Shown here piece by piece: positions 34,318 through 39,956 of a stretch of 45,850 nucleotides of DNA. A program made the position numbers and the translations under genes. How positions within the stretch are numbered: the first letter of the stretch is position 1; each line of letters opens with the position of its first letter. The notes under the pieces are model-generated. The model was not told where the DNA came from, searched no databases, and saw only the letters and a program-made list of their open reading frames with translations. This DNA comes from an uncultured Rhodospirillales bacterium (lineage in GTDB: Bacteria > Pseudomonadota > Alphaproteobacteria > Ferrovibrionales > Ferrovibrionaceae). The stretch spans positions 1 to 45,850 of the forward strand of contig CALCYJ010000310.1 of NCBI GenBank assembly GCA_937905845.1, in the 5' to 3' direction.

Positions 34318-35787
<1,470 letters not shown>

Positions 35788-35981
35788 CGCTGCCTCCGCG
35801 ATTACCCGGCGCCGGGCCGGGCGCCGGGTCAGGCCAGTCTAGAGCCATATCGGTTCCGATGGAATGGAAAGCGGGCTCTATCTCTTTGCCCGGGCAGGCT
35901 CTTTTCCCAAAAATGACCGGATTTTGTCGCAGAAACATCCCGATTGCGGCGCCGACACGGGCCGACCTGCCCGGGCGCGGG

Positions 35982-37595
<1,614 letters not shown>

Positions 37596-37764: not shown

Positions 37765-38295
37765 CTAATGTTTCTTGCGAAAGGCGTCGAGCGGCACCAC
37801 TTCGCCACTCTTGCGATCGGCATCCTCGATGGTTTCACCCACGGCTTCGGCCGGTTCGGGCAGCGGCGGCTCGGGTTGCTCCTCGGGCGGCACCGGATGG
37901 GCGCGGGCGGAGAGCGGTTTGCCGGCGACCGCAGCCGTCATGGTACCGCGGAACTGCAAGCCGAAATCCACGCTCGGATCGGCGAACGAGGTCACGGCGG
38001 CGAACGGGATCTTCATGCGCTCCGGGATGCGGTTGAAGGAGAGCGTCACCGCGAAACCCGCCTCGTCCACGGTAAGATCCCAGAACTGATGCTGGAGGAC
38101 GATGGTCATCTCTTCGGGATAGGTGTTCTGAAGATAAGGAGGGATCTCGACCCCGGGTGCGGCGGTGCGGAAGGAGATGAAGAAGTGGTGGTTGCCCGAC
38201 AGGCCGTTGATCCCGGTCTGCTGCAAAGCGGTGCGGACGACGCCGCGCAGCGCGTCCTCCACCATGAGGCTGTAGTTCAATCCTTCGCTCGGCAT
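37765..38295 (-). CDS. sspB: SspB-family ClpXP adaptor (stringent starvation protein B, alphaproteobacterial type)
   Basis: LNYSLMVEDALRGVVRTALQQTGINGLSGNHHFFISFRTAAPGVEIPPYLQNTYPEEMTIVLQHQFWDLTVDEAGFAVTLSFNRIPERMKIPFAAVTSFADPSVDFGLQF. Confidence 0.9.
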   Translation of the reverse strand: MPSEGLNYSLMVEDALRGVVRTALQQTGINGLSGNHHFFISFRTAAPGVEIPPYLQNTYPEEMTIVLQHQFWDLTVDEAGFAVTLSFNRIPERMKIPFAAVTSFADPSVDFGLQFRGTMTAAVAGKPLSARAHPVPPEEQPEPPLPEPAEAVGETIEDADRKSGEVVPLDAFRKKH

Positions 38296-38480
38296 CTGTC
38301 GTCAGCTCCTGGTCCGCCGGCCGGGGGTGAAACCCGGTCCGCAATCCATCCCGATCCACAAGACCGGGGCCCCGCGCGGCCGGGCGCCCGTCCGGCCTCA
38401 ATACTAGCCCGGATCATGGCCAATCCCAGTAAAAAAGTCGTGTCCTGCCGGGGTGGATAAGACCCAAGGATGGCACGGTA

Positions 38481-38514
38481 TGGGCCAGGGAGGGTTAATG
38501 GGCCAGGGAGGGTT
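38481..38514. repeat. Two exact copies of TGGGCCAGGGAGGGTT (period 18) adjoining the 3' end of the tmRNA coding piece
   Basis: 38481-38496 and 38499-38514 identical. Confidence 0.9.
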
Positions 38515-38880
38515 GGAAGGTTCAAGTGGTGGGCTTCTGTTGCCAGGTGCCCACCGAACCCCGAGGCTACCGCTGTTTAGGCGGCGATCCTCATGTCAAC
38601 GGAATTGTCGTTGGCATTTGTCATTTGACCCGATAACGGCGGTATCATGCCGGGCAAAAGCTGAGTCTTTACCGCGCACGTCGATCCTGATTCGCCCCCA
38701 GCAGAAGCCCACGATCCAAATCTCGCATCGGGTCTTGCGCCGGAGCCCTGCCGGCTTCGCAAAGCGCGGCTGGGGATGGGCGCAGGCCATGGGCTTGTGG
38801 TGGAGGCGCCGGGTACTGCCCCCGGGTCCGCAACGCTTATTTCAAACAGCGTTTATCGCCATAGTCGGTTGCCCGACCCA
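38515..38880 (-). ncRNA. ssrA: Circularly permuted (two-piece) tmRNA: acceptor piece about 38880-38798, intervening segment about 38797-38700, coding piece from 38699 to about 38515; tag ANDNSVDMRIAA
   Basis: Minus strand: T-arm CCGGG-GGCAGTA-CCCGG followed by CGCCTCC-ACCA. 5' GGGGGCG of GGGGGCGAATCAGGATCGACG pairs with CGCCTCC over 7 bp (one G-U). Tag ORF GCC AAC GAC AAT TCC GTT GAC ATG AGG ATC GCC GCC TAA. GGTGGGC/GCCCACC hairpin after the tag. Confidence 0.93.
38577..38615 (-). other. tmRNA tag reading frame including stop (ANDNSVDMRIAA*)
   Basis: In-frame end of the listed ORF 38577..38762 (...TNANDNSVDMRIAA); ANDN start and AA end typical of alphaproteobacterial ssrA tags. Confidence 0.88.
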
Positions 38881-39017
38881 GGATATATAGGCCATCGGCG
38901 GTGCAATTAGAAGGGGTTTGCGCGGACGGCGGGGCGAAACGAAATCCGATTCCCTAGGGTCGGATTTCGCTCTAGTGTCCCTGTTCCGCCGCCAGCCCCG
39001 AATCGAGCCGATCCGCC

Positions 39018-39956
39018 ATGCCCTTAAGTCCCGAGCAAGCCCAGGAGATCGAGCAGAGCCGCGCGCAGAGCTTTACCACCCGGCGCGCCACCGTCCCGGC
39101 GCTGGAGGAGATCCTCTATCAGGCGCTTCCCGTGCTCGACCATGGCTTCATCCGCGTGGTCGATTACATGGGCGACGATGCCGCGGTGGTGCAGGCGGCG
39201 CGGGTATCCTATGGCCGCGGCACCCGCCGGGTGAGCGAGGACCAGGGGCTGATCAACTACCTGATGCGCCATCGCCATACCACGCCCTTCGAGATGTGCG
39301 AGATCAAGTACCACGTGAAGCTGCCGATCTTCGTGGCGCGCCAGTGGATCCGCCACCGCACCGCCAATGTGAACGAATATTCGGCGCGCTATTCGATCCT
39401 CGACCGCGAGTTCTATCTGCCGGCGCCGGCGCAGCTTGCGGCGCAGTCCCGCACCAACCGCCAGGGCCGCGGCGAGGTGCTGGAAGGGGCCGATGCTTCG
39501 TTCGTGCTCGATCTTCTCAAGCGCGACGCCGAACAGGCCCATGACGATTACGAGGCGATGCTGAACGAGGGGTCGCAGGGCCGCCCGCACGATCCCGCCA
39601 GGGCGGGTCTGGCGCGCGAACTCGCCCGGATGAACCTGCCGCTCAGCACCTATACGCAATGGTACTGGAAGACCGATCTCTTCAACCTGCTGCATTTCCT
39701 GTCGCTGCGCGCCGATTCCCATGCCCAGTACGAGATCCGCGTCTATGCCGAGGCGATGCTGGAGACGGCGCGCCGCTGGGTTCCCATGACCCATGCCGCC
39801 TTCCTCGATTACCGTATCGGCGGCGCGCCGATTTCCGCCAAGGGTCTGGCCCTGGTGCGGCGTCTGCTGGCCGGCGAGGCCGTCGATCAGGCGGAAAGCG
39901 GGCTCAGCGCGCGGGAATGGCGCGAGCTGATGGCCCTGCTCGGCCGCGCGGGCTAG
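39018..39956 (+). CDS. thyX: FAD-dependent (flavin-dependent) thymidylate synthase ThyX
   Basis: ThyX motif in [71 protein letters not shown]. Confidence 0.97.

Follow-up and report, generated by a model that had tools for sequence, protein, structure and literature searches.

tmRNA releases stalled ribosomes and tags their incomplete proteins. Two-piece tmRNAs encoded in permuted order have been described for alphaproteobacteria, betaproteobacteria and cyanobacteria (PMC3985003), and in Alphaproteobacteria they have been known since 2000, when the two-piece tmRNA of Caulobacter crescentus was first shown to function (Keiler, Shapiro and Williams 2000, as cited in PMC3985003). Processing of the permuted precursor is thought to be due to RNase P and tRNase Z (PMC3985003), and 11,946 unique sequences of permuted tmRNA are collected in a recent database, some with spacers far longer than the 98 nt described below (PMC11915505). 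In Candidatus Pelagibacter ubique, the split and permuted gene adjoins thyX and was initially overlooked in an intergenic region (PMC2704228).

Here, we analyzed a stretch of 45,850 nucleotides from an uncultured Rhodospirillales bacterium (contig CALCYJ010000310.1, hereafter the window), in which an earlier note, made from the sequence alone, had placed an unannotated, hidden two-piece tmRNA gene (ssrA) at 38515–38880. The gene is an ordinary alphaproteobacterial two-piece tmRNA gene, in which every defining feature that can be tested was found. It resembles its Pelagibacter counterpart in being split, permuted and adjacent to thyX, whereas the latter is flanked on the other side by COG4696 and resides in a small AT-rich genome (PMC2704228).

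Identification of a permuted ssrA gene

Covariance analysis of the window using cmscan matched RF01849 (alpha_tmRNA) at 38916–38525 on the minus strand with 253.5 bits (cut-off 50 bits; E 1.2e-72), spanning model positions 1–355 of 355, and additionally RF04321 (tmRNA_permuted), the general permuted model, with 140 bits (E 1.4e-27). The permuted tmRNAs of Betaproteobacteria and Cyanobacteria (RF01850, RF01851) share the same two-piece plan, but the best match to the window was RF01849. ARAGORN called a permuted tmRNA (tmRNA*) at 38892–38486 with the tag ANDNSVDMRIAA and, together with the coordinates, this call confirms the permuted order, the acceptor piece lying upstream, followed by the spacer and then by the coding piece (Table 1).

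The split, permuted alphaproteobacterial architecture proposed in the earlier note, along with the covariance match and the permuted ARAGORN call that it anticipated, is borne out by these searches. The place that it gave for the gene was right nearly to the base; the gene is slightly wider, with outer bounds that differ by tool (Rfam 38525–38916, ARAGORN 38486–38892). The description as hidden holds for protein-coding annotation alone, in which a spurious 145-aa ORF overlies the region on the opposite strand (38453–38890), but fails for RNA, as two standard programs find ssrA untuned. Since standard annotation programs detect it immediately, the gene is real, yet not new, and it leaves existing knowledge of tmRNA unchanged.

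Table 1. Positions of the ssrA elements and of the adjoining genes in the window
Feature	Position	Strand	Evidence
Whole permuted ssrA gene region	38525..38916	-	Rfam RF01849 positions 1-355; cmscan 253.5 bits, E 1.2e-72
Acceptor piece (first in gene), with T-arm and encoded CCA	38798..38892	-	ARAGORN, Rfam, sequence; upper bound is the ARAGORN gene start, which may differ from the mature 5' end
T-arm CCGGG-GGCAGTA-CCCGG	38809..38825	-	Sequence; Rfam structure line
Acceptor-stem 3' strand CGCCTCC (38808-38802), then ACCA (38801-38798), CCA encoded	38798..38808	-	Sequence
Spacer between the pieces, 98 nt, expected to be removed; ends form 7-bp stem plus G-U extension (AAGCCCATGG/TCGTGGGCTT)	38700..38797	-	Sequence, cross-locus comparison, fold, inverted repeat
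Coding piece, opening with acceptor-stem GGGGGCG	38525..38699	-	ARAGORN, Rfam; 3' end uncertain: 38525 (Rfam) vs 38486 (ARAGORN)
Tag reading frame: resume codon GCC, peptide ANDNSVDMRIAA, stop TAA	38577..38615	-	ARAGORN; sequence
3' hairpin/pseudoknot-like element of coding piece (GGGGTTCGGTGGGC... / GCCCACCACTTGAACC)	38519..38563	-	Fold, inverted repeat I3, conserved RF01849 block
sspB (SspB-alpha), ClpXP adaptor for ssrA-tagged proteins; downstream of ssrA, same strand	37765..38295	-	PF04386, E 4.7e-41; PDB relatives 2nys, 2qaz, 2qas
thyX, flavin-dependent thymidylate synthase; upstream of ssrA, divergent	39018..39956	+	PF02511, E 2.5e-57

Elements of the two pieces

The T-arm, CGCCTCC, ACCA, the 98-nt gap, the 5' half and the tag ORF all lie on the minus strand where the earlier note had read them, the 5' half GGGGGCGAATCAGGATCGACG beginning at 38699. 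The acceptor stem that it had drawn between the two pieces (GGGGGCG/CGCCTCC) is paired at 7/7 positions. Its single G-U falls at position 3, where the G3-U70 wobble would be expected in an RNA charged with alanine; this pair constitutes a recognition feature of alanyl-tRNA synthetase. The tag starts with ANDN and carries two alanines before the stop, as required of an alpha_tmRNA tag. At its 3' end, the coding piece forms a long hairpin whose loop is the conserved ACCTGGCAACAGAA.

In permuted order, 7-bp inter-piece acceptor stem, T-arm, encoded CCA, ANDN...AA tag and conserved 3' block, the window gene is thus akin to other RF01849 tmRNAs, from which it differs in three respects. First, approximately 35 nt of the consensus after the tag, where the model has no base pairs, are absent. 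Second, its 98-nt spacer is the longest of the 88 loci in which a permuted gene was recognised, the 87 others having 4–81 nt; these lengths were defined by a regular expression (4–97 nt over the 88 loci), which at some loci displaces the boundary by one base. Third, the tag ends in IAA, whereas LAA or VAA are the commoner endings.

Directly past the tmRNA 3' end lie two tandem copies of the 17-nt sequence ATGGGCCAGGGAGGGTT (spacing 18; window 38480–38514), which may belong to the 3' trailer or follow it.

A single ssrA copy and its relatives

Searching the whole assembly (88% complete, 374 contigs) with RF01849 returned the window copy only. The earlier note had named a better conventional ssrA elsewhere as a finding that would speak against its reading; none was found in the assembly, where no match to the standard one-piece model RF00023 exceeded the 47-bit gathering cut-off. 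Six weak RF00023 matches were rejected as conventional ssrA, as all of them are ordinary tRNAs, the best one (34.8 bits) being a tRNA-Ala. SmpB is encoded once in the assembly, by a 164-aa open frame (PF01668, E 5.5e-54).

Including the window's own genome and 40 relatives, the same gene type (RF01849 family) was present in 39 of 41 genomes, and in all 28 of those with a completeness of 90% or more and a contamination of 5% or less. Other members of the taxonomic family have tags such as ANDNTVDMKAAA, ANDNFVDMKVAA, ANDNSVALAA and ANDNRVALAA; the window's tag resembles these and thus fits.

These results indicate that the genome almost certainly has one functional ssrA, namely this gene, whose circularly permuted layout is the typical one in Alphaproteobacteria. 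Alternatively, the gene might be a pseudogene, decayed or horizontally acquired, and the active copy might reside on sequence missing from the assembly; this would be compatible with the incomplete and fragmented assembly, the unusually long spacer and the absent block after the tag. However, all functional parts are intact, from the acceptor stem with its G3-U70 pair, the T-arm and the CCA to the resume codon, the tag and its stop, the score of the gene equals that of relatives, and ssrA is flanked by sspB and by an upstream, divergent thyX in most close relatives examined, as it is in the window, which together render this explanation very improbable. An accidental likeness to tRNA in GC-rich intergenic DNA, where spurious stems do arise and where ARAGORN also reports a poorly supported tRNA-Thr nearby, is excluded for all practical purposes by the strength of the RF01849 match over the full model and of the RF04321 match, and by the conserved blocks AGGATCGACG, GCCAACGACAA (tag start) and ACCTGGCAACAGAA. 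The tRNA-Thr candidate itself (tgt; 38314–38397, minus strand, between ssrA and sspB) matched no Rfam tRNA model up to an E of 10 and is therefore probably spurious, the DNA here being GC-rich.

Pairing of the spacer ends and proposed processing

The earlier note had further suggested an AAGCCCA/TGGGCTT stem within the intervening segment. Folded alone and compared with shuffled sequences, the spacer containing this stem was not unusual (z -1.19). As this comparison was uninformative, we made use of a between-species swap test, in which the duplex energy of native spacer ends was compared with that of ends swapped between loci, using the 82 loci whose spacers measure 20 nt or more. Native ends paired far better than swapped ones (mean -13.3 versus -7.8 kcal/mol), the native partner ranked in the best 5% of partners in 49% of loci, and the spacer ends of the window's gene (-18.6 kcal/mol) were unmatched by any foreign partner. 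The suggested stem is thereby upheld, and comparison across loci supports a spacer stem which the Rfam model lacks. Across alphaproteobacteria, the sequence and length of the spacer hairpin vary widely and its complementary ends are kept; together, spacer stem and acceptor stem form two arms of 19 nt with 84% complementarity in the window. Since the spacer ends belong together across species, a hairpin that stacks on the acceptor stem recurs among these genes, and it may guide the two cuts that release the spacer.

We propose a model in which the gene would be expressed as one transcript, acceptor piece first and coding piece second, with both pieces held together by the 7-bp acceptor stem stacked on the 98-nt spacer hairpin. 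Processing would then remove the spacer; the cut at 38699/38700 would most likely be made by RNase P and that at the encoded CCA (38798) by a nuclease that processes tRNA 3' ends. Once in two pieces, the RNA is predicted to receive alanine and to act with SmpB in the rescue of stalled ribosomes, whereby ANDNSVDMRIAA would be appended to the unfinished protein, directing it to degradation by ClpXP aided by SspB from the adjoining gene. A scan for a sigma-70 consensus promoter, which fits alphaproteobacterial promoters poorly, found none upstream of ssrA.

In several sspB-bearing loci (L047, L049, L067, L068 and others; e.g. Bosea, Chelatococcus, Methylorubrum), the acceptor CCA site does not read CCA, and CCA may therefore need later addition in these loci.

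Genomic neighbourhood of ssrA

Among solved structures, the product of the adjoining sspB gene is closest in sequence to SspB proteins (2nys, 2qaz, 2qas). With ssrA, smpB and sspB, the annotation of the ribosome-rescue and tag-degradation pathway of this genome is complete. Among 80 sspB loci fetched independently, by sspB alone (L037–L116), the permuted tmRNA motif was found in the flanks of 63, mostly ∼230–500 nt upstream of sspB and on the same strand; ssrA thus precedes sspB in the majority of the alphaproteobacteria sampled. We found no paper stating the ssrA–sspB arrangement in a literature search that reached little primary work, and it may already be described. A tentative and rather doubtful reading of these patterns is that selection maintains the spacer hairpin as a processing signal, which stacks on the acceptor stem and places both cuts, and that the conserved position of ssrA, closely preceding sspB, could bring the tag-adding RNA and the tag-reading adaptor into one transcription unit and so couple them.

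Two unrelated fumarase types also adjoin in the window (34318–37595, minus strand), a FumC-like class II enzyme (34318–35787) and a class I iron-sulphur enzyme (35982–37595).
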